64,000 bases of DNA, from assembly GCA_902588975.1 (NCBI GenBank), contig CACIRJ010000003.1:1-64000 (forward strand), in the 5' to 3' direction. This document shows positions 2,238 through 37,592 of the stretch, piece by piece. How positions within the stretch are numbered: position 1 is the first letter of the stretch; every line of letters starts with the position of its first letter. The position numbers were made by a program, and so were the translations under genes. The notes below the pieces were generated by a model. The model ran no database searches and was not told the DNA's origin. It saw nothing but the letters and a program-made list of their open reading frames with translations. The stretch is from an uncultured Pelagibacteraceae bacterium. Lineage in GTDB: Bacteria > Pseudomonadota > Alphaproteobacteria > Pelagibacterales > Pelagibacteraceae.

Positions 2238-3413
2238 TTAAATTAAATTACCAGCAACCCACTTATGAAAATGATGTGTTGGATTGTCCATCTTTGGAGA
2301 AAAATTACCTCCATTATAAGCTGGAGAGTTTCTACCTATTTGCATACTTTGAATTATATCTACATCTTCTTTTTGAATATCTTCCCATTGTTTGTGATTT
2401 TTTTGTCTTAGAGATTTATACTTTGTTGAATTTGCTGCTTCATCTCCAACATAATAAATTTCCATATGTTCTATTGTAAACTCATGATTGACTGGCTCTA
2501 ACCAATAAGCATAATAATGATCTTTGTGAATTCCTAACATTACATTTGGGAATAGCGCTACATACTCAGCTATATTTTCCTTATCTTTAGGCCAATTAGG
2601 AAAGCATGGGAACTTTTCATTTCCGTCAAAACTTGGATTATAAACAACTGTTCCTTGTCCGGCGAAACGATTTGGAAGACCTTGAATATGATAGTGATCT
2701 TCTAACTTTGAATAAGAGTTTAATCCTGGATGAACCCAAGGCAAATGATAGCTTTCACAATAATTTTCAATTGCAAATTTCCAATTACATTTTGCATCTA
2801 ATTTAAAATAACCATAATCATTTGCATGATGAATTAATTCTCTATCTTTTAAGGGCCAAAATTTTTCCCATCTTTGACTTAAAGGACTAATATAATTCTC
2901 AAATGAAATTTCATTGTTGTTAATATTAATCATAATTAGATCTAACCAAATATATGACCTTATCTCTTTTAAATTACTTTTTGATTTATCAAATTCAGGT
3001 GTTTGATTAATATTCATTCCTCCAATATGAGGTGTAGCAATTAATTTACCTTCTAAATCATAAGACCACGAATGATATGAGCACCTCATAACATTTCTAA
3101 TTTTGCCAGCTTCTTTAACTAATTTAACTCCTCTATGACTACAAATATTATGAAAAACTTTTATTTCTTTATTTTTTGTTCTAACAATAAGTAAGGGTAT
3201 TCCAAGTAAATCAATTGGTTTCACATCACCTTCATCTGGAATAGAACTTCCGACTCCAATGACGATCCACTTATCTTCAAATAATTTTTTTCTTTCAATT
3301 AAAGTATATTCTTTACTGATGTAACATTCATTTGGTAAACCATGTGCTTCACTGATTGGTTTAGATACAATATCTAACTTTTGTTTATCTATAATATTGT
3401 AAATTTCTGACAT
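2238..3413 (-). CDS. Rieske-type aromatic-ring-hydroxylating/betaine oxygenase alpha subunit
   Basis: A 391-aa oxygenase. The Rieske [2Fe-2S] ligands are visible as CSHRG and CSYHSW (CxH...CxxH) in the N-terminal third. The mononuclear iron site is seen as NWKFAIENYCESYHLPWVHP in the catalytic domain, including the bridging acidic residue and two histidines. Members with this architecture include glycine betaine (GbcA), stachydrine and carnitine monooxygenases as well as ring hydroxylases. No matching reductase (GbcB type) lies in the window, so an unlinked reductase must supply electrons. It sits 3 nt from the methyltransferase and downstream of egtD/egtB, so a betaine-like or ergothioneine-related substrate is a plausible inference only. 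Confidence 0.85.
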   Translation of the reverse strand: MSEIYNIIDKQKLDIVSKPISEAHGLPNECYISKEYTLIERKKLFEDKWIVIGVGSSIPDEGDVKPIDLLGIPLLIVRTKNKEIKVFHNICSHRGVKLVKEAGKIRNVMRCSYHSWSYDLEGKLIATPHIGGMNINQTPEFDKSKSNLKEIRSYIWLDLIMININNNEISFENYISPLSQRWEKFWPLKDRELIHHANDYGYFKLDAKCNWKFAIENYCESYHLPWVHPGLNSYSKLEDHYHIQGLPNRFAGQGTVVYNPSFDGNEKFPCFPNWPKDKENIAEYVALFPNVMLGIHKDHYYAYWLEPVNHEFTIEHMEIYYVGDEAANSTKYKSLRQKNHKQWEDIQKEDVDIIQSMQIGRNSPAYNGGNFSPKMDNPTHHFHKWVAGNLI

Positions 3414-4054: not shown

Positions 4055-5017
4055 TTACTTCACTTTTAATAAAAAAACTCCAAAATAATTTTTTTTATCT
4101 GAAAAATATTTTAAGAATTTAAAGCCAGATTTATTAACTAATTTAACAAAGTTATTTTTTGAATATTTATGAGAATTTTCAGTATGAATTGTTTCGTTTT
4201 TAGTAAATTTAATATTCTTTTTATTAATTTTTAAAGTGAAATTTTTTTTTGAAATAAGATGCATTTCAATTCTATTTTTTTTTAAATTATAGAATGCTTT
4301 ATGATCAAAATTTTTAGTTTGAAATTTTGAATTACAAATTTTGTTTACTACATCTAATATATTTTTATTAAATTTAGCTGTTACTCCCAATTTATCATTA
4401 TAAGCATTTTCAAGGGTCTTCTTATTTTTGATTAAATCTACCCCAATCACTAAATAAGAATTTTTACCTATGATTTTTGAAAAATTTTTTAATATTTTTT
4501 TTGCATTTTTAGGTAAATAATTTCCTATGGTCGATCCTGGAAAAAAACTGACTATTTTTTTTTTATTTTTTAAAATTTTATTTAATCTATTTGTCTGACT
4601 AAAGTCAGCACATATTGCTGTTACTTTTAAATCTGAGAATTTTTTTGCAATTATTGATGCATTTTCAAACAAATATTCCTTACTAATATCTATAGGTATA
4701 TATTCCTTGGGTTCGCTTAATGATTTAATAAATTTATTGATTTTTTTATTTGAACCACTGCCAAATTCTACAATTGTTGAATTAATTGGTAATTTCTTTC
4801 TTATCTCTTTTTGTAAGTTACCTAATATTTCTAACTCTTTATTTGTTGGATAATATTCTTTAAGATTTGTAATTTTATTAAATAACTTTGAACCTTTTTC
4901 ATCATAAAAATATTTAGGTAATAAATATTTTTGTTTTTTATTTAATAATCCTTGTAAGATTAATTTTTTATCATTTTGAATTTGATTGTTTATATTTATT
5001 AATTTTAAATTAGTCAC
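4055..5017 (-). CDS. egtD: L-histidine N-alpha-methyltransferase EgtD (ergothioneine biosynthesis)
   Basis: A 320-aa protein of the EgtD/DUF2260 family, which trimethylates histidine to hercynine with three SAM. Visible family features are QKYLLPKYFYDEKGSKLFNKIT near the N-terminus, the SAM site IVEFGSGSNKKINKF, YIPIDISKEYL, the CADFSQ loop and FFPGSTIGNYLP. Length matches the family. Its start codon overlaps the stop of egtB by one base, the usual egtB-egtD pairing. The protein is strongly lysine-rich, as expected for this genome. EgtC and EgtE homologues are not adjacent. Confidence 0.92.
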   Translation of the reverse strand: MTNLKLININNQIQNDKKLILQGLLNKKQKYLLPKYFYDEKGSKLFNKITNLKEYYPTNKELEILGNLQKEIRKKLPINSTIVEFGSGSNKKINKFIKSLSEPKEYIPIDISKEYLFENASIIAKKFSDLKVTAICADFSQTNRLNKILKNKKKIVSFFPGSTIGNYLPKNAKKILKNFSKIIGKNSYLVIGVDLIKNKKTLENAYNDKLGVTAKFNKNILDVVNKICNSKFQTKNFDHKAFYNLKKNRIEMHLISKKNFTLKINKKNIKFTKNETIHTENSHKYSKNNFVKLVNKSGFKFLKYFSDKKNYFGVFLLKVK

Positions 5018-6234
5018 TAGATGTCATCAGCTAGTCTGACACCGCAAAACTGCCAAGTATCACTTGGATAAAAGAAATTTCTATAAGATGCTCTAATATG
5101 ATTAATAGATGTAGAATGCGAGCCACCTTTTAAGACAAACTGATTACACATAAACTTGTTATTATATTCTCCTAGATTTCCTTCATATGGTTTATATTTT
5201 TTGTAAGGCGTGTAATTACTGCTTGTCCATACCCATAAATTTCCATAAACATCGTCTGCTTTTTCTTCAACTTCATGAAAAATTTTATTTTCTAAAAAAT
5301 TACCTTTTTTCTCAGATTGTTTTAAAAAATATTCTAGTTCAAACTCAGTTGGCAATCTTTTGTTTTTGTATCTTGCAAAAGCATCCGCTTCATAGAAACT
5401 TATATGAGAAACTGGCTTTTCATTATCAATTTTTTTTACACCGTTTAATGTAAAATAATTATTATTATCTATCCAATACATTGGTTTTTCTAATTTGTTA
5501 TTATTTACAAAATCCCATCCATCAGATAACCAATACTCATGTTTTTTATATCCTCCATCATTAATAAATTCTTTCCACTCTCCATTAGTAACAAATGAAT
5601 ATATTTTAAAAGGATCTAATTGTGTTTCTGAAACTGGTAATTCGTTATCGTAACAAAAAATATCCTCGTTGTTTCCATATTTAAATTTTTTAGTAGTATC
5701 TAATGTCAATTCATTTTCTTCTTTTGCAGTTGGTTTGTCGTCTTTAGAATTATAAGTCGGCATCAATGGATTGTTGTAAAAAATATTTTTAATATCCATT
5801 AACATTAATTCTTGATGCTGTTGTTCGTGATTTGAGCCTAGTTCAACTAAAAATGATGTTCTGTTATTTTTTGTTCTTTTTAAAAAATCAATAATATTTT
5901 CAGTTACATAATGTCTGTAATTAACTACATCTTTTAAGAGCGGTCTGTTTAGTGAACCTCTCTTATTTCTAGGATTGTACTCACCCACAGAATTATAATA
6001 AGAATTAAATATATAATTATAATCTTTGTTGAAAGGTTTGTAACCTTCATCCAATTCAGACAAGATGAATTTTTCAAAAAACCATGTGGTGTGACCAAGA
6101 TGCCACTTAAGTGGGCTAACATTTTTGCTGGGCTGTATGACCATATCCTCGGCCTCTAAGTTCTCGCACAGGGATAGAGTTTGTTGTCTTGTTTTGGAGA
6201 ATAATTCTGTAATTTGAGATAATTTATTTTCCAT
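5017..6234 (-). CDS. egtB: Hercynine sulfoxide synthase EgtB (DinB_2 + FGE-sulfatase domains)
   Basis: A 405-aa nonheme-iron enzyme that forms the C-S bond of ergothioneine from hercynine and a thiol (cysteine or gamma-glutamylcysteine) using O2. An N-terminal DinB_2 domain carries HLGHTTWFFE (H45/H48) and NHEQQHQELM (H136/H140), which supply the iron histidines; a C-terminal formylglycine-generating-enzyme-like domain (roughly 190-405) ends with SYRNFFYPSDTWQFCGVRLA. The absence of a fused C-terminal methyltransferase argues against OvoA. Without a nearby EgtC amidohydrolase, direct use of cysteine is possible, but this is inference. It is the first gene of the minus-strand operon; its upstream region (6235-6338) is shared divergently with the MetF-like gene and contains an AT-only 16-bp palindrome at 6239-6254. 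Confidence 0.92.
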   Translation of the reverse strand: MENKLSQITELFSKTRQQTLSLCENLEAEDMVIQPSKNVSPLKWHLGHTTWFFEKFILSELDEGYKPFNKDYNYIFNSYYNSVGEYNPRNKRGSLNRPLLKDVVNYRHYVTENIIDFLKRTKNNRTSFLVELGSNHEQQHQELMLMDIKNIFYNNPLMPTYNSKDDKPTAKEENELTLDTTKKFKYGNNEDIFCYDNELPVSETQLDPFKIYSFVTNGEWKEFINDGGYKKHEYWLSDGWDFVNNNKLEKPMYWIDNNNYFTLNGVKKIDNEKPVSHISFYEADAFARYKNKRLPTEFELEYFLKQSEKKGNFLENKIFHEVEEKADDVYGNLWVWTSSNYTPYKKYKPYEGNLGEYNNKFMCNQFVLKGGSHSTSINHIRASYRNFFYPSDTWQFCGVRLADDI

Positions 6235-6338: not shown

Positions 6339-7067
6339 ATGAATTTTTCTTTAGAAATAGGTCCTAAAACTGATTTAAGCACCTTGCCAAAGGTAAAAGA
6401 TGTTTATGTTACAATGCTACCTGGAGGTGATTATAAAGAGACCGCTCAACAGTCTGGAGAGTTAGTTAAAGAGGGATTTAATCCAGTTCCTCACTTCCCA
6501 GCAAGGTCAATTAATGATGAAAATCAGCTGAAAGATTATGTTTCTAGATGTAAAGATTTAGGTGTTAAGCAGGTCTTGGTGATAGGTGGAAGTCGTGACC
6601 CGATCGGAAAATTTGATAGCTCATATCAAATGTTAGAGACAGGGTTTTTTGATGGTATCAAGATTGGAATTGCTGGACATCCAGAGGGGAGTCCTGATAT
6701 ATCCGACTCTGATTTAGAAAAAGCTATGATGGATAAAAAGCCTTATGCTGATTATATAGTTACACAGTGGCTAATGGATACTCAGCCTATTATAGATTTT
6801 ATCTCAAAACAAACAATACCAGTTCATGTTGGAATAACTGGGCCAATGAAAATATCTAGCTTAATTAAATTTGCTAATATTGTAGGGGCAAAAAATTCCA
6901 TTAACTTTCTTAAATCTAATTTTAGTAAGGCGTTAGATTTATTGAAACCTAAAGACCCTAATGATTTAATTGGGAAAGTTAAATCGCATACTGATTATTT
7001 CCACATTTATACATTCGGCGGCTTGAAGGAAACTAACAAGTGGTTGAAGGAGAATAACTATGTCTAA
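6339..7067 (+). CDS. Methylenetetrahydrofolate reductase (MetF)-like protein
   Basis: A 242-aa single-domain TIM-barrel protein of the MTHFR family. VYVTMLPGGDYKETAQQSGELVKEGFNP, VPHFPARSI, the VLVIGGSRDP segment and IAGHPEGSPD correspond to the conserved folate/FAD barrel strands of MetF. It is shorter than housekeeping MetF (about 290-300 aa). It overlaps the next gene (GcvT-like) by 8 nt, so the two are translationally coupled. Known MetF-like proteins paired with GcvT-like demethylases handle methyl-THF produced by demethylation, so it probably oxidises 5-methyl-THF to methylene-THF or acts as an accessory. The specific role is inferred. Confidence 0.8.
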   Translation: MNFSLEIGPKTDLSTLPKVKDVYVTMLPGGDYKETAQQSGELVKEGFNPVPHFPARSINDENQLKDYVSRCKDLGVKQVLVIGGSRDPIGKFDSSYQMLETGFFDGIKIGIAGHPEGSPDISDSDLEKAMMDKKPYADYIVTQWLMDTQPIIDFISKQTIPVHVGITGPMKISSLIKFANIVGAKNSINFLKSNFSKALDLLKPKDPNDLIGKVKSHTDYFHIYTFGGLKETNKWLKENNYV

Positions 7068-8415
7068 TGAATTTGACTATAGTAAACTAAGACATACAAC
7101 ATCAGTAGATCAGTCTGATAGAAAAGTACCATACAATTTAAGACAAAGCGGACCTACTAAAGTTGAGATGCTAATATCAACAAGAGTAAGGAAATCTCCA
7201 TACTGGCATTTATCTATGAAAGCAGGATGTTGGAGAGCAACTGTTTATAACAGAATTTATCATCCAAGAGGCTATGTTAAGCCAGAAGATGGTGGTGCAA
7301 TGGTTGAGTACGAAGCAATTAAAAACCATGTAACAATGTGGAATGTTGCAGTTGAACGACAAATACAAGTTAAAGGACCAGATGCAGAAAAATTTGTTGA
7401 TTATGTAATTACAAGAGATGCTACAAAAATTTCTCCAATGAGAGGAAGATATGTAATTTTGTGTAATGCATACGGAGGAGTTTTAAATGATCCAATTCTT
7501 TTAAGAATATCTAAAGATGAATTTTGGTTTAGTTTATCAGATAGTGATATTGGATTATATCTGCAAGGAGTAAATGCAGATGAAAGATTTAATGTTCAAA
7601 TTAATGAAATAGATGCTTGTCCTGTACAAATTCAAGGTCCTAAAGCAAAAGCTTTAATGAAAGATCTTTGTGGAAGTGAAGTTGACATAGACAACATGCC
7701 TTTTTATGGATTGGCATCTGCAAAAGTTGGTGGAAGAAGTTGTATTATTTCTCAAACAGGTTTTTCAGGCGAGTCTGGATTTGAAATATATTTAAGAGAA
7801 GCAACTTTATATGCCGAAGATATGTGGAATGCTGTTCTTGAAGCAGGTAAAAAACATAACTTAATGGTAATTGCACCTGCACACCATAGAAGAATTCAAG
7901 CTGGAATTCTTTCATGGGGACAAGATATGGATCATGAACATAATCCTTTTCAATGTAATCTTGGATATCAAGTTTCTTTATCTGGAAAAGGTGAATGGAA
8001 CAAAAAAGGTGATTATGTTGGTAAAAAAGCCCTTGAGAAAATGAAAGCTGACTTAAAAGCAGGTCATAAACCTTACAAACTTCAATTAGTAGGACTTGAA
8101 TTAGGAGGAAAACCTATTGAAGAATATGCTCCAGATTTTTGGTTAATTTCAGAGAACGGCAGTGAGCCTGTAGGATTTATAACTTCTCCATGGTATCACC
8201 CAGAAAAAGGGAAAAATATTGCTATGGGATACGTTCCATTTGATGGCACGCTAAATGCAAATGGTTTTCCAAAAGGTAAGGTTGGATCGAAATTTAAAGT
8301 CCATCTACCAGAAAAATATTCTGATAAACCTGGAGAACCAGTTGATGCAGTTGTAGTTGATATTCCATTTACAGAATCTTACAACGCAAATACAAGAGAA
8401 GTAGTCAGTAAGTGA
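7060..8415 (+). CDS. GcvT/DmdA/LigM-family tetrahydrofolate-dependent methyltransferase (demethylase candidate)
   Basis: A 451-aa aminomethyltransferase-fold protein. Family segments are MWNVAVERQIQVKGPDAEKFVDYV, the CNAYGGVLNDPILLRIS strand pair, VQIQGPKAKALM, SQTGFSGESGFEIYL and the C-terminal barrel PVGFITSPWYHPEKGKNIAMGYV. It is longer than SAR11 DmdA (about 370 aa), with an N-terminal extension (KVPYNLRQSGPTKVEML) and an HHRRIQAGILSWGQDMDHEHNP region where GcvT has its ArgLeuGlu loop. It is therefore unlikely to be canonical DmdA or GcvT. Coupling to the MetF-like gene implies that it transfers a methyl group from an unknown O-, N- or S-methylated substrate to THF. It is divergent from the ergothioneine operon. 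Confidence 0.8.
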   Translation: MSNEFDYSKLRHTTSVDQSDRKVPYNLRQSGPTKVEMLISTRVRKSPYWHLSMKAGCWRATVYNRIYHPRGYVKPEDGGAMVEYEAIKNHVTMWNVAVERQIQVKGPDAEKFVDYVITRDATKISPMRGRYVILCNAYGGVLNDPILLRISKDEFWFSLSDSDIGLYLQGVNADERFNVQINEIDACPVQIQGPKAKALMKDLCGSEVDIDNMPFYGLASAKVGGRSCIISQTGFSGESGFEIYLREATLYAEDMWNAVLEAGKKHNLMVIAPAHHRRIQAGILSWGQDMDHEHNPFQCNLGYQVSLSGKGEWNKKGDYVGKKALEKMKADLKAGHKPYKLQLVGLELGGKPIEEYAPDFWLISENGSEPVGFITSPWYHPEKGKNIAMGYVPFDGTLNANGFPKGKVGSKFKVHLPEKYSDKPGEPVDAVVVDIPFTESYNANTREVVSK

Positions 8416-17353: not shown

Positions 17354-17932
17354 TTATTCAGCTTTATAGCCAAATTCTAAACAAGCATCAGTTATTGAAT
17401 GATAAAGAGATTCACCAAAACTTCTTAAAGCAAACATTCTTACTTTTCTTGGATTTGAACTTATAAAATCAATAGTTATTGTAATTGCATGAAAAGCAGA
17501 ATTAGAACATTTTCCTTCATCAAGACCATCTAAATTTAAAGGACAACCTTTTTTCAATACTTCATCTACTAAAGAACCTTCCAATTCCAGTATTGTTCTT
17601 GAATGAGATAGATCTGTTAATGCAAAATCATCATGACTTAAGTTCTCTAAAATAGATTTTTCTATTTCTTTATTTTTTGAAACGACTAACCAATTATCAG
17701 GTCCCATCCATAAAATTCTTGTATTTTTATTTGAAGAAACCAAAAGTGTCTCAGGTAAATTTAAATTATCTATTTTTATTTTATCAATACTAATTGAAGA
17801 TTTTTTATATTTAACAATTTGATAAATCAAAACATCTTTGATTTCTCTAATATTTATTAGCTCATCTTTACTATCATGATTGCCAAACAATCCATGTTTA
17901 TGAATATTTTCTAGTGCAGAAACATTTTTCAT
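17354..17932 (-). CDS. soxG: Sarcosine oxidase gamma subunit
   Basis: A 192-aa protein of the SoxG family, related to the N-terminal GcvT fold. Features include ILWMGPDNWLVVSKN, ALTDLSHSRTILELEG, VLKKGCPLNLDGLDEGKCSNSAF and MFALRSFGESLYHSITDA. It is the smallest GcvT-like structural subunit of the heterotetrameric enzyme. Its ATG overlaps the soxA stop by 4 nt, and it is the last gene of soxB-soxD-soxA-soxG. The C-terminus lies 3 nt from the convergent transporter gene. Confidence 0.9.
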   Translation of the reverse strand: MKNVSALENIHKHGLFGNHDSKDELINIREIKDVLIYQIVKYKKSSISIDKIKIDNLNLPETLLVSSNKNTRILWMGPDNWLVVSKNKEIEKSILENLSHDDFALTDLSHSRTILELEGSLVDEVLKKGCPLNLDGLDEGKCSNSAFHAITITIDFISSNPRKVRMFALRSFGESLYHSITDACLEFGYKAE

Positions 17933-20925
17933 GATCTAACTCTTTTTCCTTCAGGATCAACATAATGTGAAGATATAACTTCTACCTCAATTGATTTATT
18001 TTTTAATGGTGATACCGCAAAAAACTTTTTACCTATCATGTTTTTTCCATCTTTCATAATTGCTAGAGAAAATGGATTATTATTTTCAACACTCCAACAA
18101 GAAGAAGAAACGTGACCAAGTTTAGGATTAGGTAATTTTGCATTCTGATCTTGGACGATATGAGATCCTTCAGGAATACTAGACTTTCTATCAATTGGAA
18201 TAAGTCCAACAATTTTTTGTCTGCTTTCAACGTTAAATGCTTCTCTTCCTAAAGAATTTTTACCAATAAAATCTTTTTTCTTTGAAACTAATCCATTTAG
18301 TGAAACATCTGATGGGATTGTTCGGCCGTCTAATTCTGGTCCTGCAACGTGTCCCATTTCTATTCTTAATGTTGATAAAGCTTCAGTTCCATAAGGCTGA
18401 TTTCCAAATTCTTTTCCTACTTCCATCATTTTCTCCCACATAAACATGCCATGATCTGATTTGACATTAATCTCGTATGCAAGTTCACCTGAAAATGAAA
18501 TTCTAAAAATTCTTGATGGAACACCAAAAAAGTCTGCTTCTTTATAGCCCATAAAAGGCAATGAATCATTTGAAACATCTAAGTCTGGATATAATTTTGA
18601 TAACATATCTCTAGATTTGGGTCCTGCAATTGCAGCTCCTGCCCATTGCTCAGTTGTAGATACAACGTTTACATTTAATTCAGGCCATACAATTTGAAGA
18701 TAATATTCTAAGTGAGATAAAACATTTGCAGCTTGTGCAGTTGTAGTGGTCATATGATAATGATTTTCTGAAATCCTTGTTGTTGTTCCATCGTCCATGA
18801 CAATTCCATCTTCTCTGAGCATTAATCCATATCTTGCTTTTCCAACAGGTAATTTCATCCAAGCATTTGTATAAACTCTATTTAAAAATTCTGCTGCGTC
18901 TGGACCTTTGATATCAATTTTTCCTAATGTTGTTACATCACAGATACCAACGTTCTCTCTAACATTTTTTGCCTCTCTCTTTGAAGCTTCAAATAAAGTT
19001 TCATTTCCTTGTTTGTAATATCGAGGTCTCTTCCAGGCACCTGCATCAACAAAAACAGCATTATTTTTCTCATGCCATTCATGCATTGGTGTTTTTCTAG
19101 TTGGCATATATTCCATACCTACTTCACGACCAACTATTGTCCCAATTGTAATTGGTGTGAAGGGTGGTCTAAATGTTGTGTGTCCCACCTCAGGAACTAT
19201 TTTATTTTCTATATTAGATACCAACTGAAGACCATTTAAATTACTTGTACGGCCTTGATCTGTTGCCATTCCAAGAGTTGTGTATCTTTTGACATGCTCT
19301 ATTGATCTGTAGCCTTCTCTTAGTGCAATTTCTATATCAGAAACAGATACATCGTTTTGAAAGTCAACAAATCTCTTTGGATTTTCATTTTTAGGCAACG
19401 GCATACACCAAAATTTATCATGAGCTCCATATTTTTTTTCATTTACATTTGGAATTGCAATTTCTGTTTTAGTATCTGTAATTTTAGCAGAAAGATTTGA
19501 ACCATTTTCAAAACCATTTTTTAAACTTTCTTCTAAAGTAAAAGATCCATTTGCTGCACCAACTGAGGTCTCATGTTGTTTTTTCTTATCAGGAATAAAT
19601 GCATCAATTTTTTCTTCATACTTGAGTTTATTTCCTGATTGTGATGCTAAATGAACAGATGGTGTCCAAAATCCAGATACACAAATACAATCACAATCTA
19701 CAGTTTCTATTTTCTCAAAAGAATTTTTATCTTTATTTAATTTACCAATTTTTGCAGATTTAACTTTTTTGTATCCATTAGCAACAATAACACCGTGGGA
19801 AAATCTTATATCGATTCCCTTTGATTTAGCTTCATCGATTAATTCTGATGAATGTTCTTCTCTTGTATCTAATATAATTGGTTCAACATTATTTTTTTTG
19901 AACTCTAAAGCTGTTTCATATGCACTATCGTTATTTGTAAATATTAATGGTTTTTTTCCTACTAATACACCGTAGACTTTCATATATTCTTTTGCAGCTG
20001 CTGATAAAAAAATTCCTGGAGTATCATTGTTGCCAAATACAATCGGTCTTTCAATTGAACCAGTTGATAAAATTGTTTCTTTAGCTCTAATATACCAAAG
20101 TCTTTGTCTTGGGGTGAATTTTGATTTTTTCTCTAAATGATCACTAACTCTTTCAAACATAACCAGCATATTGTGATCATAGTAACCAAAAACTTGAGAT
20201 CTATTTTTTACAGTTACATTAGGCATAGATTTTAATTCAGTAATTATTTTTTCTGCCCAATCTTTTCCTGATAAATTATCTATGCTTACATCATCAGTTA
20301 AAAGTGTTCCTCCAAATCTTGGTTTATCCTCAGCTAAAATTACTTTTGCTCCATTTTTTGCAGCAGCATAAGCGCTTGCTAATCCAGAGGGTCCGGATCC
20401 AGTGACCAATAAATCACAATACTCAAATTTATGTTCGTATCTTTCTTTATCTTTTTCTATTGAAGCAACCCCTAATCCTGCGGCTTTTCTAATGAAAGGT
20501 TCGTAAATTTTATACCAGAAACTTTTAGGCCACATAAATGTTTTGTAATAAAACCCAGCAGGGAAAAACATTTTTAAGAAATTATTAATTGCACCAACAT
20601 CAAAATTTACTGATGGCCAACAGTTTTGGCTTGTTGCAGACAAACCTTCAACGAGTTCCATTTCTGTTGCATTAACATTTGGCTCTGAATGACCATTGAA
20701 TTCTACTTGAAGCTTTGCGTTTGGCTCCTCTACTCCTGCACCAAAAAAACCTCTCGGTCTATGATATTTAAAACTTCTACCAACTAAGTGTATTCCATTT
20801 GCTATTAAAGCAGAGGCAATTGTATCACCTTCATATCCAAATAATTTTTTACCATTAAAAGTAAAAGATATTTTTTTGTTACGATTAATTAATCCCTCTT
20901 TATTTAATCTAAATGGTTGGCTCAT
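17929..20925 (-). CDS. soxA: Sarcosine oxidase alpha subunit
   Basis: A 998-aa subunit of heterotetrameric sarcosine oxidase (or its paralogue N-methylglutamate dehydrogenase). The order is an N-terminal 2Fe-2S-like Fer2_4 fold (FTFNGKKLFGYEGDTIASALIANG), a dinucleotide Rossmann fold (DLLVTGSGPSGLASAYAAAKNGAK), and from about residue 610 a GcvT-type folate domain (NVGICDVTTLGKIDIKGPDAAEFL...). It produces 5,10-methylene-THF from the oxidised N-methyl group. It overlaps soxD and soxG by 4 nt each. Length is standard for the family. Confidence 0.93.
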   Translation of the reverse strand: MSQPFRLNKEGLINRNKKISFTFNGKKLFGYEGDTIASALIANGIHLVGRSFKYHRPRGFFGAGVEEPNAKLQVEFNGHSEPNVNATEMELVEGLSATSQNCWPSVNFDVGAINNFLKMFFPAGFYYKTFMWPKSFWYKIYEPFIRKAAGLGVASIEKDKERYEHKFEYCDLLVTGSGPSGLASAYAAAKNGAKVILAEDKPRFGGTLLTDDVSIDNLSGKDWAEKIITELKSMPNVTVKNRSQVFGYYDHNMLVMFERVSDHLEKKSKFTPRQRLWYIRAKETILSTGSIERPIVFGNNDTPGIFLSAAAKEYMKVYGVLVGKKPLIFTNNDSAYETALEFKKNNVEPIILDTREEHSSELIDEAKSKGIDIRFSHGVIVANGYKKVKSAKIGKLNKDKNSFEKIETVDCDCICVSGFWTPSVHLASQSGNKLKYEEKIDAFIPDKKKQHETSVGAANGSFTLEESLKNGFENGSNLSAKITDTKTEIAIPNVNEKKYGAHDKFWCMPLPKNENPKRFVDFQNDVSVSDIEIALREGYRSIEHVKRYTTLGMATDQGRTSNLNGLQLVSNIENKIVPEVGHTTFRPPFTPITIGTIVGREVGMEYMPTRKTPMHEWHEKNNAVFVDAGAWKRPRYYKQGNETLFEASKREAKNVRENVGICDVTTLGKIDIKGPDAAEFLNRVYTNAWMKLPVGKARYGLMLREDGIVMDDGTTTRISENHYHMTTTTAQAANVLSHLEYYLQIVWPELNVNVVSTTEQWAGAAIAGPKSRDMLSKLYPDLDVSNDSLPFMGYKEADFFGVPSRIFRISFSGELAYEINVKSDHGMFMWEKMMEVGKEFGNQPYGTEALSTLRIEMGHVAGPELDGRTIPSDVSLNGLVSKKKDFIGKNSLGREAFNVESRQKIVGLIPIDRKSSIPEGSHIVQDQNAKLPNPKLGHVSSSCWSVENNNPFSLAIMKDGKNMIGKKFFAVSPLKNKSIEVEVISSHYVDPEGKRVRS

Positions 20926-21191
20926 CTTATTTCTTCTGTAACTTTTGCTGTTTGGAAAATTTCATGTGTAGCGGTGTCTCTTTGCACCTTAATCCATTGT
21001 CTACATCCAGCTATATGTTGCCATAACTCTATATGTTTTCCTCTAGGACTTTTTCTCATATAAACAAAATTATCCCAATCTTCACTTGATACTTCTTCAT
21101 TTATATTAGGTCTTTTTACAGTTGCATCACCTCCATATGAAAATTCTTTTTGTGCTCTTAAACCGCAATAAGGACATTTGATGTATAACAT
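20922..21191 (-). CDS. soxD: Sarcosine oxidase delta subunit
   Basis: An 89-aa zinc-binding subunit. The N-terminal IKCPYCGLRAQKEFSYGGDA and the later LWQHIAGCRQWIKVQRDT give the usual Cys/His zinc ligands (CxxC, H, C). It lies 3 nt after soxB and overlaps soxA by 4 nt, the standard soxBDAG order. Confidence 0.93.
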   Translation of the reverse strand: MLYIKCPYCGLRAQKEFSYGGDATVKRPNINEEVSSEDWDNFVYMRKSPRGKHIELWQHIAGCRQWIKVQRDTATHEIFQTAKVTEEIR

Positions 21192-21194
21192 TTT

Positions 21195-22451
21195 TTAACC
21201 AATCCAGGTTTTAGTTCCTAAACCTTTTTCATCTAAAAGATGGCCTGTAGAAAATCTATTTAATCTTAATTCTGAATTTAATTCATGAACTTGATCTTGT
21301 GCAATTGTATGAGCAAATGTCCAACCTGAGACAGGAGTTGATTTAAAACCTCCATAACACCATCCGCAATTTAAATATAAACCTTCAATATGAGTTTTAT
21401 CAATTATTGGAGAACCATCCATAGACATATCCATGATTCCTCCCCATGTCCTTAACATTTTTAATCTACTTAAAAATGGAAACAAAGCTAAGCCACCTGT
21501 CAATACATGTTGTATAGTTGGCAAGTTGCCTCTTTGAGCATAACTATTATATCCATCAAGATCACCACCCATTACCATCTCACCTTTATCTGATTGACTT
21601 ATATAAAAGTGGCCTGCACCAAAAGTTACTACTCCATCTAATAATGGTTTTACAGGTTCTGAAACACAAGCTTGCAGTACATGAGTTTCTATTGGCAGTG
21701 TCATATTTAATTTTTCAGCTAATATATTTGTGCTACCCGCAACACATAATCCAACTTTTTTTGCTTTAATATCTCCTCTTGAAGTTCTTATTCCTTTTAT
21801 CTTTCCGTTAACAACATCAAAACCAGTGACCTCACAGTGTTGTATTATATCTACTCCCATATCATCTGCTTGACGCGCATATCCCCAAGCAACAGCGTCA
21901 TGTCTTGCTGTACCAGCGCTTGGTTGCATTAAGCCTCCAAAAATTGGGAAACGTACTTCATCACTAAAGTCAGCCATTGGAATTAATTTTTTAACTTCGT
22001 CTCTATCCAATAACTTTGCATCTATTCCATTTAATCTCATAGAGTTTCCTCTTCGAGCATATGCATTCATTTGAGCATCTGAATGGGCTAAGTTTATTAT
22101 TCCCCTTGGAGAAAACATCACATTAAAGTTCAGTTCTTGACTTAAGTTTCTCCATAAATCCATTCCAAATTCATTAAATCTTGCATTAGCATCGTACATA
22201 AAATTTGATCTTATGATCGTTGTATTTCGACCAACATTTCCACCACCAATCCAGCCTTTCTCAATGATAGCTACATTTCTGATATTATGTTCTTTTGCTA
22301 AATAATATGCAGTAGCAAGACCGTGTCCTCCGCCTCCGATGATGACTACATCATATTCACTTTTTGGCGTTGGATCTTTCCAAGCAACTTCCCAATTTTG
22401 GTGATTGGAGAAAGCGTTTTTGATTAGACTAAATACTGAATATTTCTGCAT
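21195..22451 (-). CDS. soxB: Sarcosine oxidase beta subunit
   Basis: A 418-aa DAO-family flavoprotein. The FAD fold is VVIIGGGGHGLATAYYLAKEH with a following acidic residue (IIEKGWIGGGN). The block PSAGTARHDAVAWGYAR contains the histidine that carries covalent FMN in characterised SoxB. The C-terminal GLYLNCGWCYGGFKSTPVSG closes the flavin site. It oxidises sarcosine to glycine. It is the first gene of the operon, with a 121-bp divergent region towards fhs (22452-22572). Confidence 0.93.
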   Translation of the reverse strand: MQKYSVFSLIKNAFSNHQNWEVAWKDPTPKSEYDVVIIGGGGHGLATAYYLAKEHNIRNVAIIEKGWIGGGNVGRNTTIIRSNFMYDANARFNEFGMDLWRNLSQELNFNVMFSPRGIINLAHSDAQMNAYARRGNSMRLNGIDAKLLDRDEVKKLIPMADFSDEVRFPIFGGLMQPSAGTARHDAVAWGYARQADDMGVDIIQHCEVTGFDVVNGKIKGIRTSRGDIKAKKVGLCVAGSTNILAEKLNMTLPIETHVLQACVSEPVKPLLDGVVTFGAGHFYISQSDKGEMVMGGDLDGYNSYAQRGNLPTIQHVLTGGLALFPFLSRLKMLRTWGGIMDMSMDGSPIIDKTHIEGLYLNCGWCYGGFKSTPVSGWTFAHTIAQDQVHELNSELRLNRFSTGHLLDEKGLGTKTWIG

Positions 22452-22572: not shown

Positions 22573-24252
22573 ATGTCAAAATCAGATATCCAAATTGCAC
22601 GAGAAGCAAAAATGAAACCCATAAATGAGATTTTGGGTAAAATTAATGTTCCAGACGAACCAAGTGCTTTTAGTCCTATGGGACGTCATATTGCTAAAAT
22701 AAATTTAGAATATTTAGATAGTTTAAAAGATAAACAAAATGGAAAATTAATTTTAGTTACTGCTATTACTCCAACTCCTGCAGGTGAGGGAAAAACTACT
22801 ACGTCAGTTGGTTTAAATGATGGATTAAATAAAATTGGTAAAAATTCTATAGTGTGTTTACGTGAACCTAGTTTAGGTCCTTCATTTGGAATGAAAGGTG
22901 GAGCAGCAGGTGGAGGATATGCTCAAGTTGTTCCAATGGAACAAATCAATTTACATTTTACGGGGGATTTCCATGCAATTACATCTGCTCACAATTTATT
23001 GTCAGCGTTAATTGATAATCATATTTATTGGGGAAATAAATTAAACATAGATGTAAGAAGAGTAGTTTGGAGAAGAGTTATGGATATGAATGATAGATCT
23101 TTAAGAGCTATCAATATTAATTTAGGAGGAGTTGCTAATGGTTTTCCAAGAGAAGACGGTTTTGATATTACAGTAGCATCTGAGATAATGGCTATCTTTT
23201 GTTTAGCAAATGATCTTGAAGATTTGGAAAAGAGAATAGGTAATATTACAGTTGCTTATACTAGAGATAGAAAGCCTATTTTTGCAAAAGATTTAAATGC
23301 TCATGGACCAATGACTGTTTTGTTAAAGGAAGCAATTAGACCTAATGTAACTCAAACTTTAGAAAATAATCCTGCCATTATTCATGGCGGTCCTTTTGCT
23401 AACATTGCTCATGGATGTAACTCTGTGATAGCAACTAAAGCAGGTTTAAAACTAGCTGATTATGTTGTAACTGAAGCTGGATTTGGAGCAGACCTAGGAG
23501 CAGAAAAATTTCTAGATATTAAATGTAGAAAATCAAATTTAAAACCTGAGTGTGTAGTTATTGTTGCAACAATTAGAGCATTAAAAATGCACGGTGGTGT
23601 AGCTAAAGATGATTTAAAAAATGAAAATGTAGATGCGTTAAAAAAAGGTTTAGTAAATTTGGAAAGACACATTGAAAACGTAAAAAAATTTGGTTTACCG
23701 GTAGCGGTTGCTGTTAATCATTTTGTTGCCGATACTGATAATGAAGTAAAAGAGTTAATAAATGCTTGTGATAATATGGGAGTAAAAGCTACTTTATGCA
23801 CTCATTGGTCAAATGGTGGTGAAGGAACAAAAGAACTTGCCGCACATGTTGTAGATTTAATTGATCAAAAAAAAGCAAATTTTAAATTTTTATATGATGA
23901 AAAAACACCTTTGTTAAAGAAAGTTGAGACTGTTGCAAAAGAAATTTATCGAGCAAACGAAGTTGTTGCTGACAGTAAAATAAAAGATCAATTAAAATCT
24001 TTTGAAGAAGCGGGTTATGGAAATTTACCTATATGCGTAGCGAAAACACAATATAGTTTTTCTACTGATCCAAACGCAAAAGGTGCTCCAACAGGCCATT
24101 CATTACCAATTAGAGAAGTAAGATTATCCTCAGGTGCAGAGTTTATTGTTGTTATATGTGGAGCCATCATGACAATGCCAGGACTTCCAAGAGTTCCTGC
24201 AGCAGACTCTATTAAGCTTAATGAAAAAGGTGAAATAGAAGGCTTGTTCTAA
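22573..24252 (+). CDS. fhs: Formate-tetrahydrofolate ligase
   Basis: A 559-aa cytosolic enzyme that interconverts formate + THF + ATP with 10-formyl-THF. The P-loop [16 protein letters not shown], the [18 protein letters not shown] loop and [15 protein letters not shown] are diagnostic. Length matches the family. Its divergent placement from soxBDAG links oxidation of N-methyl C1 units to formate/10-formyl-THF. Its last 4 nt overlap the convergent amidotransferase gene. Confidence 0.96.
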
Positions 24253-32469: not shown

Positions 32470-33429
32470 TTAATTTAATATTAATTTTTTATTGTTAATA
32501 ATAGATTTAATTAATTTTGCCATCAAAGGGATTTTTTTTTGTTGGATTTTTTTTAGTATAAATGGAGCAATTTCTCTTGCAAGTTGCTCTCCCTCTACAG
32601 TTTCATTTAGCATAAATTTTCTTTTAGCATTATTAAATGTATAGCCTTGCCCCAAGTAACCTCCCATTTTACTATTTCTACCTCCAGCAGCACTGACGTA
32701 TAGATCTCCAACTCCAGCTAATCCAAGAGCGGTTTCAATTTTTCCTTTAAAATATTTAGTAATATATATCATCTCATTAATAGATTTTTTGAATAAACTT
32801 GATGACATATTTAAACTATCTCCAGCCCCGATAATCATTGAATAAATATTTTTAATTGCTGAACAAATTTCTATTCCAATAATATCTTTCGAAGTCTCTG
32901 TTATGTAATATTTTGTAGAAATCATTTTGCATATATTCTGTGCAGTTTTTATATTTTTATTAGCAACAACAACACTTGTTTGTTTTTTATTAGAAAGTTC
33001 TTTTGCTAAACAAGGTCCTTTTAAGACAGATATATTTATATTTTTATTATTTTTTTTTATATCTTCAGAAATAGTATAAATTTTTTGCTTTTTTTTATCA
33101 TACTTTAAGCCTTTAGTAAGAATTAGAACTGGACTTTTGATTTTTGATTGTTTGAATTCTTCACTTATAAATTTTATTCCTGATAAACTTAAAGCAACAA
33201 CAACTAAATCATATTTTTTTTTTAGTAAGTTTGTTGAATATTTTTTATACTTTAGCTTACTAGGTAAATTTTTTTTCAAACTTGAATGATATTTATTATT
33301 TGAAGATAAATTTTTAATAAAAACTTTATTATATGGCTCTGTTATTATTACTTTGTTTTTATTATCAATACATGGAAAAGTAAAAGCTGATCCCATTGCT
33401 CCTCCACCTATTATTAATATTTCTTTCAC
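32470..33429 (-). CDS. gpsA: NAD(P)-dependent glycerol-3-phosphate dehydrogenase
   Basis: About 319 aa from a GTG start at 33429 (MKEILIIGGGAMGSAF). This start is preferred to the track's upstream start (33471), because the extra 14 residues would lie inside tmoW, and because TAGTG fuses the tmoW stop with this GTG. Family motifs are LILTKGLKYD, LKGPCLAKEL, SAIKNIYSMIIGAGDSLNMSSS and GLAGVGDLYVSAAGGRNSKMGGYLGQG. It interconverts DHAP and sn-glycerol-3-phosphate. Its place between a TMAO transporter and a glycoside transporter is unusual. It might be the housekeeping enzyme for phospholipid synthesis or a glycerol-unit catabolic paralogue. Confidence 0.88.
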   Translation of the reverse strand: MKEILIIGGGAMGSAFTFPCIDNKNKVIITEPYNKVFIKNLSSNNKYHSSLKKNLPSKLKYKKYSTNLLKKKYDLVVVALSLSGIKFISEEFKQSKIKSPVLILTKGLKYDKKKQKIYTISEDIKKNNKNINISVLKGPCLAKELSNKKQTSVVVANKNIKTAQNICKMISTKYYITETSKDIIGIEICSAIKNIYSMIIGAGDSLNMSSSLFKKSINEMIYITKYFKGKIETALGLAGVGDLYVSAAGGRNSKMGGYLGQGYTFNNAKRKFMLNETVEGEQLAREIAPFILKKIQQKKIPLMAKLIKSIINNKKLILN

Positions 33430-35456
33430 TAGTTGATAAATCCTAATTTTTTCTTCATTTGATTTGACCATTCAACTAACAATCTATCTGCAGTCAAACC
33501 TATAAATGCAACACATAATCCTATTATTAAACCTTTGCCCCCGTCACTAAAAGACAATGCCCGAAATATTTCTTGCGACAAGTCAACAGTTCCAATAAAT
33601 CCAGCTATCATTACCATAAATAAAGCAAACATTAATGTTTGATTTGCGCCCAGTATAATTTCTGGAAAGGCTAAAGGCATTTTTACTTTCCATAATAATT
33701 GTCTTTCTGTACATCCAGAAGTTATAGATGCCTCTATAATTTGTTGTGGAACATTTCTTAGTCCAAAAACAGTATATCTTATCATTGGTATTGAGGAATA
33801 TATAACTATTGCAAATATTGCTGAAACATCACTTATTTGAAATAGCATTATTGCTGGAAGTAGATAAATAAATGATGGAAATGTTTGAAAAATATCACAA
33901 ATATTTAAAACTAACTTTGTTCTTCTCTCTTTCTTTGATGCCCATATCCCCAAAGGAATTCCAATAAGTGCACATATTACTAATGATGCAAATACCATGT
34001 ATAAAGTAATCATTGCTCTTACCCAATAACCAGATGATGCTATAAAAAATACGAATAACATTACTGTTAACGCTAGTCTCATTTTACCAAGCTTCCACCC
34101 AATTGCTCCGACAAATAAAATTACTCCAGTCCATGGCATAGATTGAAATACAGCTTTAAGAGGCATCAAAAAATATATTAACATCCAATCTCTAAAAATT
34201 CCTAATGGTACAAATAAAGATCTTGTAAATGATTTAATGGCATTATCTAAATATACAGATGCTGAAACTGTTAACTCTTTTGGATATTCATTAAAAAATG
34301 GAAAAAGAAAAACTAAGATAGAGCAAATTATAATTGCAAAAAAAGTTGCGCACAAATATGGATTTCTCTTTAAAAAATTTCCCTCTCTTCGCTCTGGTTC
34401 TTTTAATGCTAAAGCTTGACTATATCTATCAAGTGTAATTGCGATCAAAACAACCGCAACACCAATTTCAAAAGCCTCACCTAACCTTAAGCCTTGCAAT
34501 CTAATTAACAAGTCATGGCCTAAACCAGGTTGTCCAATAAATGCAGCTATAACTATCATTGCAAGACATTGCATAATAACTTGATTTATTCCCAACATAA
34601 TTGGAGATCTAGCTGCAGGAATTTCAACTTTGAACAGCATTTGCCACTTTGTGCAACCAGCCATAACCCCAGCTTCTTTTATTTCTTGTGATATATTTTG
34701 TAATCCTAAAATAGTTAATCTAGCCATTGGTGGAAAAGCAAATATTACGGTTGCAATAACTCCAGCTTTAGTCCCTATTCCAACAAATATAACTACCAGT
34801 ATTAAATAAGAAAAATGAGGTAAAGATTGTAAAATATTTAACATTGGCCATAAAAAGTTTGCAAATCTTTTTCTCTTGACCGCAAGTATACCCAAACACA
34901 ATCCTATTAATGCAGCCAAAGGTGCAGAGACAGAAATAGCTGCTAAAGATTTCATTGATAGTTCCCATATTCCCCGTTTACTAAACAATATTAAGTAAGC
35001 AAAACATGTTCCACCCAACAATGCCAATCTCCAACCTCTCAAATAAAAACCTAATATTACTGTAAGTGTTATTATAAATATCCACGGTAAAGGTCCTATT
35101 TCGTAGCTTGGAAAACCTTTATGCAAGACTGCTTCTGTAAAATCTAAAAATTTATCGACGTAGTTTGCTATACCTCTTGTGAAATCTCTAAAAGTAAACA
35201 AACCGAAAATTTCATACTTTCTTAGAAATTGTATTAATGCGTTTGTCCAATCTACAAATGGTATAAATCCATCTATTGATCCGCATCCTCCCAAGCAACT
35301 TTTTGGAGGAATATAAGCCCAATGTGGTGTTTTGGATGAAATCGTATAATTAGGAACAATATAACGAAGCAACCATAACAAAAAGAATGGTCCAAAAATA
35401 AATAAAAATTTTCCTTTAAAAATGGTTTTAATTTTATTCATTCTTATCTTCTGCAA
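33429..35456 (-). CDS. tmoW: TMAO/quaternary amine ABC transporter permease, double-length (TmoW/ProW-type)
   Basis: A 675-aa membrane protein made of two ProW-like permease halves in tandem. Each half has its own EAA loop: IKEAGVMAGCTKWQMLFKVE (first) and IIEASITSGCTERQLLWKVK (second). A fused permease of this length is what I know for TmoW of the TMAO transporter TmoXVW in Ruegeria and SAR11. It overlaps tmoV by 23 nt and gpsA by one base. The substrate is inferred mainly from the divergent tdm gene. Confidence 0.85.
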   Translation of the reverse strand: MQKIRMNKIKTIFKGKFLFIFGPFFLLWLLRYIVPNYTISSKTPHWAYIPPKSCLGGCGSIDGFIPFVDWTNALIQFLRKYEIFGLFTFRDFTRGIANYVDKFLDFTEAVLHKGFPSYEIGPLPWIFIITLTVILGFYLRGWRLALLGGTCFAYLILFSKRGIWELSMKSLAAISVSAPLAALIGLCLGILAVKRKRFANFLWPMLNILQSLPHFSYLILVVIFVGIGTKAGVIATVIFAFPPMARLTILGLQNISQEIKEAGVMAGCTKWQMLFKVEIPAARSPIMLGINQVIMQCLAMIVIAAFIGQPGLGHDLLIRLQGLRLGEAFEIGVAVVLIAITLDRYSQALALKEPERREGNFLKRNPYLCATFFAIIICSILVFLFPFFNEYPKELTVSASVYLDNAIKSFTRSLFVPLGIFRDWMLIYFLMPLKAVFQSMPWTGVILFVGAIGWKLGKMRLALTVMLFVFFIASSGYWVRAMITLYMVFASLVICALIGIPLGIWASKKERRTKLVLNICDIFQTFPSFIYLLPAIMLFQISDVSAIFAIVIYSSIPMIRYTVFGLRNVPQQIIEASITSGCTERQLLWKVKMPLAFPEIILGANQTLMFALFMVMIAGFIGTVDLSQEIFRALSFSDGGKGLIIGLCVAFIGLTADRLLVEWSNQMKKKLGFIN

Positions 35457-36462
35457 ATAAAGCTTTGATTATTTCTTTTTTGCTTAATGAACCAATAACT
35501 TTTTTATTTTCATCAATAACAGAGTAAGATCCTTCGGATTTTAAAACTTTTGATGCGATTTTTTCAATCTTTTCTTTACAGTTAACAGTATTATCATAGA
35601 GTTTTTTGTCCTTATTATTCATAACACTTTCAGCGTTTAATAACTTAGATCTAGGAATATCTTTTGTAAATTCTGCAACATAATCAGTAGCTGGTTTTGT
35701 GATTAATTCTTCAGGAGTGCCTACTTGGACTATTAATCCTTCATACATTATTGCTATTCTATCTGCCAATCTTATAGCTTCGTCAAAATCATGAGTTATA
35801 AAAACAATTGTCTTTTTAAGCATATTTTGAAGTCTCAAAAACTCGTTTTGCATCTCTTTTCTAATCAATGGATCTAAAGCTGAAAAAGGTTCATCTAAAA
35901 ACCAAACATCTGGTTCAACCGCTAAAGACCTTGCTAGTCCAACTCTTTGTTGTTGACCTCCTGAAAGTTCTCTAGGATAATATTTTTCTCTACCTTCAAG
36001 ACCAACTAATTTAATGACCTCTTTTGCTCTATCTTCTCTTTTAATAGGCTCTATTCCTTGCACCTCTAAAGGAAATGCAACATTTTGTAAAACTGTTCTG
36101 TGAGGTAATAAAGCAAAATGCTGAAATACCATTCCCATTTTATGTCTTCTTATTTCGATTAACTCTTTATCGCTAGCTTTTAATAAATCTTTACCCTCAA
36201 AAAAAACTTGACCATCAGTTGGTTGAATAAGTTTAGACATACATCTTAACAATGTTGACTTACCAGATCCACTCAATCCCATAATAACCAATATTTCTCC
36301 AGTTTTTACATCGATAGATGCATCTCTAACCGCAGGTATATATTTATTTGATTTTAGTTGTTCAGTTGATGGATTATTATTATTTTCTTTTAAAAACTTT
36401 TCTGGATTCTCTCCATATAATTTCCAAATATTTGAACATGAAATTTTGATTTGATCGTCCAT
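35434..36462 (-). CDS. tmoV: TMAO/quaternary amine ABC transporter ATPase (TmoV/ProV-type)
   Basis: A 342-aa ProV-type ATPase with Walker A GLSGSGKST, signature LSGGQQQRVGLARS, Walker B VWFLDEPFSALDP and a shortened CBS-like C-terminus (SYSVIDENKKVIGSLSKKEI). ProV proteins use such CBS modules as ionic-strength sensors; only one short repeat is visible. It follows tmoX after an attenuator hairpin. Confidence 0.9.
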   Translation of the reverse strand: MDDQIKISCSNIWKLYGENPEKFLKENNNNPSTEQLKSNKYIPAVRDASIDVKTGEILVIMGLSGSGKSTLLRCMSKLIQPTDGQVFFEGKDLLKASDKELIEIRRHKMGMVFQHFALLPHRTVLQNVAFPLEVQGIEPIKREDRAKEVIKLVGLEGREKYYPRELSGGQQQRVGLARSLAVEPDVWFLDEPFSALDPLIRKEMQNEFLRLQNMLKKTIVFITHDFDEAIRLADRIAIMYEGLIVQVGTPEELITKPATDYVAEFTKDIPRSKLLNAESVMNNKDKKLYDNTVNCKEKIEKIASKVLKSEGSYSVIDENKKVIGSLSKKEIIKALFAEDKNE

Positions 36463-36490
36463 AATAAATAAAGTTAAGAGAACTTAACAT

Positions 36491-36536
36491 AAAATAAAAA
36501 AAAAACGAACCGACTTAAGATTATGTCGGTTCGTTT
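36491..36536 (-). terminator. Intrinsic terminator/attenuator downstream of tmoX
   Basis: A perfect 12-bp inverted repeat (AAACGAACCGAC / GTCGGTTCGTTT) with a 10-nt loop, followed on the minus strand by a T-rich tract. It lies 16 bp after the tmoX stop and 28 bp before the tmoV start, so it probably lets binding-protein mRNA exceed that of the permease and ATPase. Confidence 0.9.
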
Positions 36537-36552
36537 CTAAATAGATTAAAAA

Positions 36553-37497
36553 TTACTTAATCCAATTGCTCCATTTAGATTTGTGGTCATCTAACCATTT
36601 TTGAGCAGCTGCTGATACTTCTAAACCATCTGTATCCTTATAGTTAGCCATTTTGTCAATGTCTGGACCAGAAAAATTCATCTGTTTCAACAACTTATAT
36701 CCCGCAGGATGATTTTTTTTGAAATCAGCATTAACTGCTAATTTTAAATAACCACTTGCTGGGTTTCCACAATCATAAAGTGCAGTTTTATTGATTCCCC
36801 ATGAAGGATCCTTCGTACAAGCTGGATCATGTTTAGGAAACTCAACAAACTTACCTGGATATTTTGCACCGATGAAATTTGGTGACCAGTTAAACACAAC
36901 TACAGCTTTTCCTTGAGCCACACCTGCATCTAATTCAGCCCAAATAGCATCTGCAGAACCTGCATTTTTAACCATGAAGTTCATACCTAAAGCCTCAACT
37001 TTTTCAGCATCATGTTTTAACCAATCAACAGGACCACCGATAAATACTCCCTTACCTCCAGAGTCTGCTCTTGCAAAAAGATCTGCACATTTATTTAGAG
37101 CTTTCCAATCTGGTAGACCAGGACAAAGTTTTTCAACATGGTTTGGATACCACCAGTCCTCTCTAGTTACTGCATCGTGAGTAAGAATTTCTTCAATTCC
37201 ACCACCAGCTTTTGCTTTTTCATAAGATGCTCCAAACGCACCTTCCCAAATTTCATGAACTAGATCAATATCACCGTCTGCCATTGCCTGGTATACTGCT
37301 TGTGAGTCCATATTAATATACTCTACTTTCTCACCTACCATTTTTAGCAATTCACCAACAACTTCAGCTCCAACTAATTGACTTGACCAATTGTGTGTTG
37401 GAATTTTAACAACTCCGCTTTTATCTGCATTCGCACCTGTAAAACTTAGAGCAAATGTAATCAAAAAAGCAGAAATTATTGATAAAAGTTTCTTCAT
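36553..37497 (-). CDS. tmoX: TMAO-binding periplasmic protein (TmoX/ProX-type)
   Basis: A 314-aa substrate-binding protein of the OpuAC/ProX family with a signal peptide (MKKLLSIISAFLITFALSFTGANA). The mature part is tryptophan-rich (PTHNWSSQLV, HEIWEGAFG, REDWWYPNHV, VFNWSPNF), as expected for an aromatic cage that binds methylated amines. Operon order X-V-W and the adjacent divergent tdm support TMAO as ligand; glycine betaine or choline cannot be excluded from sequence alone. Confidence 0.85.
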   Translation of the reverse strand: MKKLLSIISAFLITFALSFTGANADKSGVVKIPTHNWSSQLVGAEVVGELLKMVGEKVEYINMDSQAVYQAMADGDIDLVHEIWEGAFGASYEKAKAGGGIEEILTHDAVTREDWWYPNHVEKLCPGLPDWKALNKCADLFARADSGGKGVFIGGPVDWLKHDAEKVEALGMNFMVKNAGSADAIWAELDAGVAQGKAVVVFNWSPNFIGAKYPGKFVEFPKHDPACTKDPSWGINKTALYDCGNPASGYLKLAVNADFKKNHPAGYKLLKQMNFSGPDIDKMANYKDTDGLEVSAAAQKWLDDHKSKWSNWIK

Positions 37498-37510
37498 TTA
37501 TTTCTCCTCT

Positions 37511-37524: not shown

Positions 37525-37592
37525 TATTTAATTATCCTTAAATTTAATCTTACAGTCAACAAAAGTTGGTACTAAAATTTATATATACAATT

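Follow-up and report, generated by a model that had tools for sequence, protein, structure and literature searches.

What does a GcvT-like protein act on when its gene overlaps that of a short MetF homologue? The question is raised by a 64-kb stretch of DNA (the window), part of contig C3 of an uncultured Pelagibacteraceae genome (0.99 Mb, 77% complete), for which an initial annotation had proposed a metF-like and a gcvT-like gene overlapping by 8 nt. The list of open reading frames of the window confirms both genes, each with an ATG start and with the position, strand and length given in Table 1. The GcvT-like protein, named AMT here, shares 99–100% identity with proteins from uncultured Pelagibacteraceae (SAR11), and the overlap suggests translational coupling of the two genes.

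The pair almost certainly corresponds, as matched by description, to SAR11_1264/SAR11_1265 of Ca. Pelagibacter ubique HTCC1062. In this strain, Sun et al. (2011) reported SAR11_1264 (metF) next to SAR11_1265, a DmdA-related aminomethyltransferase of unknown substrate, for which methylmercaptopropionate (MMPA) was guessed (PMC3160333). The arrangement of a metF beside a DmdA-related aminomethyltransferase is, therefore, not new, having been described in 2011; what is newly proposed here is the substrate, glycine betaine rather than MMPA. SAR11 bacteria are major consumers of glycine betaine, an osmolyte abundant in the sea.

Table 1. Positions in the window of the metF–AMT pair and of other genes discussed in the text
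Feature	Position	Strand	Basis and proposed role
GbcA-like Rieske oxygenase	2238..3413	-	PF00355/PF00848; GbcA model 118 bits, cut-off 670
egtD	4055..5017		
egtB	5017..6234		
MetF-like protein, 242 aa	6339..7067	+	PF02219; nearest solved relative 7xg9; proposed to convert 5-methyl-THF to 5,10-methylene-THF
metF/AMT overlap	7060..7067	+	8 nt; same overlap in other genomes of the genus
GcvT/DmdA-like protein AMT, 451 aa	7060..8415	+	PF01571 and PF08669; own clade; proposed THF-dependent glycine betaine demethylase
soxB-soxD-soxA-soxG, heterotetrameric sarcosine oxidase type	17354..22451	-	SoxA model (1314 bits), SoxG models
fhs, formate-THF ligase	22573..24252	+	Assigned by its sequence; would act in C1 oxidation downstream of MetF
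TMAO/methylamine block	33429..46470		
Tdm-size GCV_T protein	37639..39978		
FAD oxidoreductase, 442 aa	40419..41747		

Distribution and coupling of the pair

AMT was detected in 49 of 99 Pelagibacteraceae genomes, at 81–100% identity. The short MetF lies directly upstream, on the same contig and strand and with gaps of -5 to +112 between the matches, in 48 of these 49 carriers and was found in none of the 50 non-carriers (Fisher p 1e-27, a value that overstates independence, the genomes being related). The coupling first seen at a single locus is thus not a matter of chance.

Outside Pelagibacteraceae, AMT is carried by about 16 genomes of the 385 in the class sample (53–86% identity) and by four Gammaproteobacteria (66–68%), separated by an identity gap from paralogs at 44% or less; on haloarchaeal plasmids it occurs at 51–59%. 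Across Alphaproteobacteria, Gammaproteobacteria and haloarchaea, the relatives (50–86% identity) are often encoded beside genes for the other two betaine methyls. Because the MetF partners in the non-SAR11 proteobacterial groups are just about 30% identical to SAR11 MetF, the AMT–MetF association appears to have been retained or rebuilt in distant lineages.

AMT forms a separate clade with a conserved folate site

AMT carries the GCV_T (PF01571, 141 bits, cut-off 25.6) and GCV_T_C (PF08669) domains, and its nearest solved structure is P. ubique DmdA (3tfh, 2e-44). It fails, however, the curated cut-offs of the DmdA equivalog (236.9 vs 410 bits), of the GcvT equivalog and subfamily models (159 vs 300 and 138 vs 236 bits) and of the Tdm equivalog (156.7 vs 1100 bits), which matches the C-terminal part only, AMT being without the two-domain length. 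The LigM and DesA equivalogs gave 35.4 vs 580 and 42.1 vs 800 bits, and on these scores an aromatic O-demethylase was dropped as a candidate. In both trees the AMT proteins form a well-supported separate clade, with DmdA, GcvT and the SoxA and DMGDH C-termini outside it and, in the larger tree, Tdm and LigM as well. A joint clade of AMT and DmdA is rejected (p-AU 8.7e-9), and AMT groups with DmdA-type proteins, away from GcvT.

Like DmdA, AMT has the GcvT fold, and Asp144, Glu242, Tyr244 and Arg278, invariant in the 31 AMT rows of the alignment and common to DmdA, match the positions of the DmdA THF-site residues Asp108, Glu204, Tyr206 and Arg239 (3tfh); judged from this alignment, the folate site is kept, Glu242 and Arg278 being the Glu and Arg typical of the GCV_T superfamily. 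Other positions distinguish the two proteins. Phe235 replaces DmdA Trp197 in 30 of the 31 rows; the role of the substrate-pocket Trp of DmdA has been described under an alignment numbering that differs from Trp197 (PMC7487153). In the HHRRIQ motif (residues 275–280), Arg277, beside the conserved Arg278, is Glu in DmdA (Glu238) and Asp in GcvT, and a motif around residues 16–31 is without counterpart in either. The initial annotation had singled out the N-terminal and HHRRIQ regions as unlike those of DmdA and GcvT, which is borne out, and had suggested a phylogeny with DmdA, LigM, Tdm and GcvT; AMT lies outside all four clades and, being neither DmdA nor GcvT, stands as a distinct protein. AlphaFold, run with 12 SAR11 sequences of 90–98% identity, gave an unusable model (mean pLDDT 55).

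Two further groups were seen in the trees. A well-supported sister group of GcvT-like proteins of about 385 aa (L116–L125, L146–L147, L151–L153) occurs in SAR11 as well as in many other proteobacteria; its members have an Arg where AMT has Arg277, and no C1 genes nearby. DmdA-like proteins of SAR11 and relatives (L005, at G000:C3:81280-82365, L154, L155 and L158) are placed beside true DmdA and mostly have Tyr at the Trp197 position.

The MetF-like partner

The 242-aa protein passes the general MTHFR model weakly (PF02219, 25.4 bits, cut-off 24) and falls below the stricter MetF equivalog models (31.6 bits, cut-off 310). Its closest solved structure is PDB 7xg9 (2e-32), which we take to be the MetF paired with LigM in Sphingobium SYK-6, and by this clear relationship it is a diverged member of the MTHFR family. 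In the alignment, from which two gammaproteobacterial rows carrying stops were left out, the short MetF, compared with E. coli MetF, keeps the catalytic Glu28 and Gln183 but not Asp120.

The short MetF is the only MTHFR match in its genome. A canonical MetF (280–300 bits) is found in its place in three tested genomes (G005, G009, G012) of the AMT-less SAR11 genera g5, g9 and g12, and no MetF was found in the tested AMT-less genome of genus g4. G088, the single near-complete genome of the window's genus that lacks AMT, has neither AMT nor MetF. The alternation of canonical and short MetF across SAR11 genera looks as if the role of MetF had shifted with loss or gain of the module. Since SAR11 has been reported to be without MetE and MetH (PMC12478193), its MetF would hardly be useful for methionine synthesis.

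Gene neighbourhoods outside SAR11

In genus g44 (L127–L129), the genes run soxB-soxD-soxA-soxG, then a gene for an 824-aa protein matching N,N-dimethylglycine oxidase over its full length, then metF and AMT. A DMGDH-type protein adjoins AMT in L126 and L135–L138, accompanied by soxBDA in L136–L138, and L139 brings soxABD, AMT, MetF, Fhs and DMGDH together. AMT occurs with Fhs and a DMGDH-like gene in L182–L184, with MetF also present in L183 and L184, and with MetF only in L181. The Fhs proteins adjoining AMT in other genomes are 48–75% identical to the product of the window's fhs. In each of the haloarchaeal islands L175–L178, L180 and L227, AMT is accompanied by MetF. Further members, which vary from island to island, are two dimethylglycine-oxidase-type proteins, GlyA, a PLP dehydratase (annotated as ilvA), Fhs, FolD, formate dehydrogenase, folate-synthesis genes, ETF and BCCT transporters; a GbcA-like Rieske gene is present in one Haloarcula island. 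This betaine island context is absent from the haloarchaeal relatives L179 and L228. On these Haloarcula plasmids, a diverged form (51% identity) has a regulator and an MFS transporter as its neighbours, and its substrate may differ.

At least one such C1/betaine gene is present at 13 of 20 non-SAR11 proteobacterial AMT loci, compared with 20 control neighbourhoods of nearest paralogs and DmdA-like genes that contained no MetF, Fhs or DMGDH and one soxB fragment at the edge (p 1.4e-4, with loci of one genus being non-independent). Counted by hand per family, the ratio is 7 of 14 for AMT vs 1 of about 15 for the controls (p 0.014), and betaine context is absent in about half of the sampled non-SAR11 proteobacterial families.

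Betaine genes in SAR11

In the window, AMT is not flanked by the betaine context, and its neighbourhood there would not by itself reveal the substrate. The space between the Rieske gene and metF (3417–6234) is taken by egtB, egtD and a gene for a 209-aa methyltransferase. In the complete genome G043 (L216), an operon OpuAC-OpuAB-metF-AMT is divergent from a BHMT-like gene (158 bits against human BHMT) and a gene for an 801-aa DMGDH-like protein. Of 80 related SAR11 loci, roughly 25 have OpuAB upstream of metF, and 44 have egtB and/or egtD in its place. The slot held by the egt genes in the window is filled in other SAR11 species by OpuAC-OpuAB, which some of them combine with BHMT- and DMGDH-like genes, an apparent cassette exchange. 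Demethylation of hercynine or ergothioneine, considered from the adjacency of egtB and egtD, was set aside, as this adjacency is not general and related species have OpuAC-OpuAB in the slot.

Within the genus, 13 genomes that carry AMT are at least 97% complete, and every one of them has a DMGDH ortholog (rat-DMGDH-like, 658 bits); that of the window's genome is on contig C16. In the same 13 genomes, a BHMT-like gene (matches up to E 1e-60) is missing from 7, as judged with a BHMT-like protein query used in place of PF02574, which is unable to tell BHMT from other homocysteine methyltransferases. MtgB-family genes were found in none of the 13, nor in 20 of the 24 genomes of the first set. If DMGDH works as named, the seven genomes with neither BHMT nor MtgB need another source of dimethylglycine, for which AMT or a Rieske enzyme would be candidates; a GbcA-like Rieske oxygenase is encoded near AMT in many SAR11 genomes. 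Rfam gave no riboswitch match for the window, nor for those AMT and BHMT loci that were searched.

A candidate glycine betaine demethylase

The pairing, fold family, clade, folate site and neighbourhoods are read from sequence, and from there we infer the substrate and chemistry of AMT and the direction in which MetF works. Whatever its substrate, AMT very probably transfers a methyl group to tetrahydrofolate (THF). It is probably a THF-dependent, corrinoid-free glycine betaine demethylase, the 5-methyl-THF that it forms being oxidised by MetF. The three-methyl logic of the neighbourhoods and the joint presence or absence of AMT and MetF count for betaine, while the main cautions are the GbcA-like Rieske oxygenase nearby and the DMSP-transporter-like binding protein in some SAR11 operons. 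Among the three kinds of substrate initially suggested, the conserved neighbourhoods favour the methylated osmolyte, as glycine betaine, and the LigM and DesA scores disfavour the aromatic methyl ether.

DmdA, which transfers a methyl group from a sulfonium to THF, serves as the model for this step. With the same fold, AMT would pass one N-methyl of glycine betaine directly to THF, giving dimethylglycine and 5-methyl-THF in a redox-neutral reaction with the quaternary nitrogen as methyl donor and N5 of THF as acceptor, without cobalamin or homocysteine. This product would call for MetF, which may convert 5-methyl-THF to 5,10-methylene-THF, to be followed by FolD, Fhs and formate dehydrogenase. 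The second methyl would be removed by the dimethylglycine dehydrogenase encoded on contig C16 and the third by a sarcosine oxidase. For the window's soxBDAG we propose removal of the third methyl or action on N-methylglutamate; a second soxA of this genome is on contig C1. We regard the GbcA-like Rieske gene of the window as a neighbour whose product may compete for the betaine step and do not count it in the module.

On balance, we lean towards AMT being a separate first step of betaine breakdown that works without oxygen, homocysteine or cobalamin; in SAR11 and many haloarchaea it would be the main betaine demethylase in catabolism, with BHMT serving SAR11 methionine supply. The BHMT route would send one betaine methyl in three to methionine, and bhmT of HTCC1062 lies under SAM riboswitches. 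In that strain, 14C-methyl betaine was converted to CO2 with negligible incorporation, and the medium for the ATP assays of the same study held 50 uM methionine (PMC3160333). Such CO2 formation with negligible incorporation fits a second, folate-linked first step but is no proof of it. Transcripts of SAR11_1264/1265 were at 0.10–0.20 of the exponential level in what was apparently stationary phase (PMC5069961).

Alternative substrates and reactions

That AMT demethylates some other quaternary ammonium compound, such as proline betaine, carnitine, hercynine/ergothioneine or homarine, with betaine left to a Rieske enzyme, BHMT or another protein, is unlikely; under this reading the THF transfer and the MetF step would be unchanged. 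A GbcA-like Rieske gene neighbours the pair in the window, L142 and L143, and egtB/egtD adjoin it in the species group of the window, which would suit such a role, but egtB/egtD are swapped for OpuAC-OpuAB in related species, no such Rieske gene was found next to AMT in L127–L129 and L144–L145, and most of the products would not feed the recurring partners, dimethylglycine dehydrogenase and sarcosine oxidase. We consider more doubtful still that AMT acts on a sulfonium, as a second DMSP demethylase or as the MMPA demethylase of Sun et al. (2011). The partner genes serve N-methyl glycines, DmdA itself is encoded in the same genome (L008), and the rejection of a single clade with DmdA and the Phe at the Trp197 position in 30 of 31 AMT proteins both speak against it, as does the absence of SAR11_1264/1265 from the transcripts raised under sulphur limitation. 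These points are set against DmdA being the closest characterised relative of AMT and against the OpuAC of the SAR11 operons, which is nearest to the DMSP-binding protein DmpX and keeps the reported DMSP-site residues except Ala153, which is Asn; a SAR11 DmpX binds DMSP at 100 nM, and earlier work calls the SAR11 betaine transporter multifunctional. The MMPA guess in particular is disfavoured by gene context.

The same fold and the DMGDH and Sox neighbours are also what an ordinary aminomethyltransferase would have, passing the formaldehyde-level carbon of a flavoenzyme product to THF to give 5,10-methylene-THF, with MetF coupled for another reason. This is very improbable: the DMGDH and Sox enzymes carry a GCV_T domain of their own, the strict MetF pairing implies a methyl-level product, AMT groups with DmdA-type proteins rather than with GcvT, and SAR11, given the reported lack of MetE and MetH, would have little anabolic use for MetF (PMC12478193).

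Relation to known systems

As a betaine demethylase, AMT would resemble MtgBCD with MetF2 of Ruegeria pomeroyi, in which a betaine methyl is likewise passed to THF and a dedicated MetF oxidises the methyl-THF, but MtgBCD is cobalamin-dependent and unrelated (PMC12478193). BHMT shares with it the proposed SAR11 step from betaine to dimethylglycine, yet it belongs to an unrelated fold family, passes the methyl to homocysteine and, as noted, is missing from about half of the near-complete AMT genomes. LigM of Sphingobium SYK-6, a GcvT-like O-demethylase feeding a THF pathway with MetF, differs in its substrates, aromatic methyl ethers, and in its model score. In a 2025 study, BHMT was the sole enzyme to which betaine demethylation in SAR11 was ascribed, an assignment made without an experiment (PMC12478193), and a 2011 survey of haloarchaea reported dimethylglycine oxidases and BCCT transporters with the first step unnamed (PMC3102087). 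Our literature search, which covered few subscription papers and no bioRxiv preprints, found no earlier proposal of a THF-dependent betaine demethylase of this fold, which is weak evidence that there was none. To our knowledge, no enzyme for a B12-free removal of the first betaine methyl has been shown in these organisms. If our proposal is true, the AMT family would fill both first-step gaps, in SAR11 and in haloarchaea, betaine demethylation would gain a B12-free form, and the scoring of marine metagenomes for betaine turnover would be altered.

Other methylamine genes in the window

The window also contains a TMAO/methylamine block (Table 1), in which OpuAC-type transporter genes precede the gene for a Tdm-size GCV_T protein. 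The tdm of this block probably corresponds to SAR11_1303, for which action on betaine was postulated in 2011. As HTCC1062 has been reported to be without dmmDABC (PMC8918994), the FAD oxidoreductase encoded after the Tdm-size gene might, speculatively, be a candidate for the dimethylamine step.
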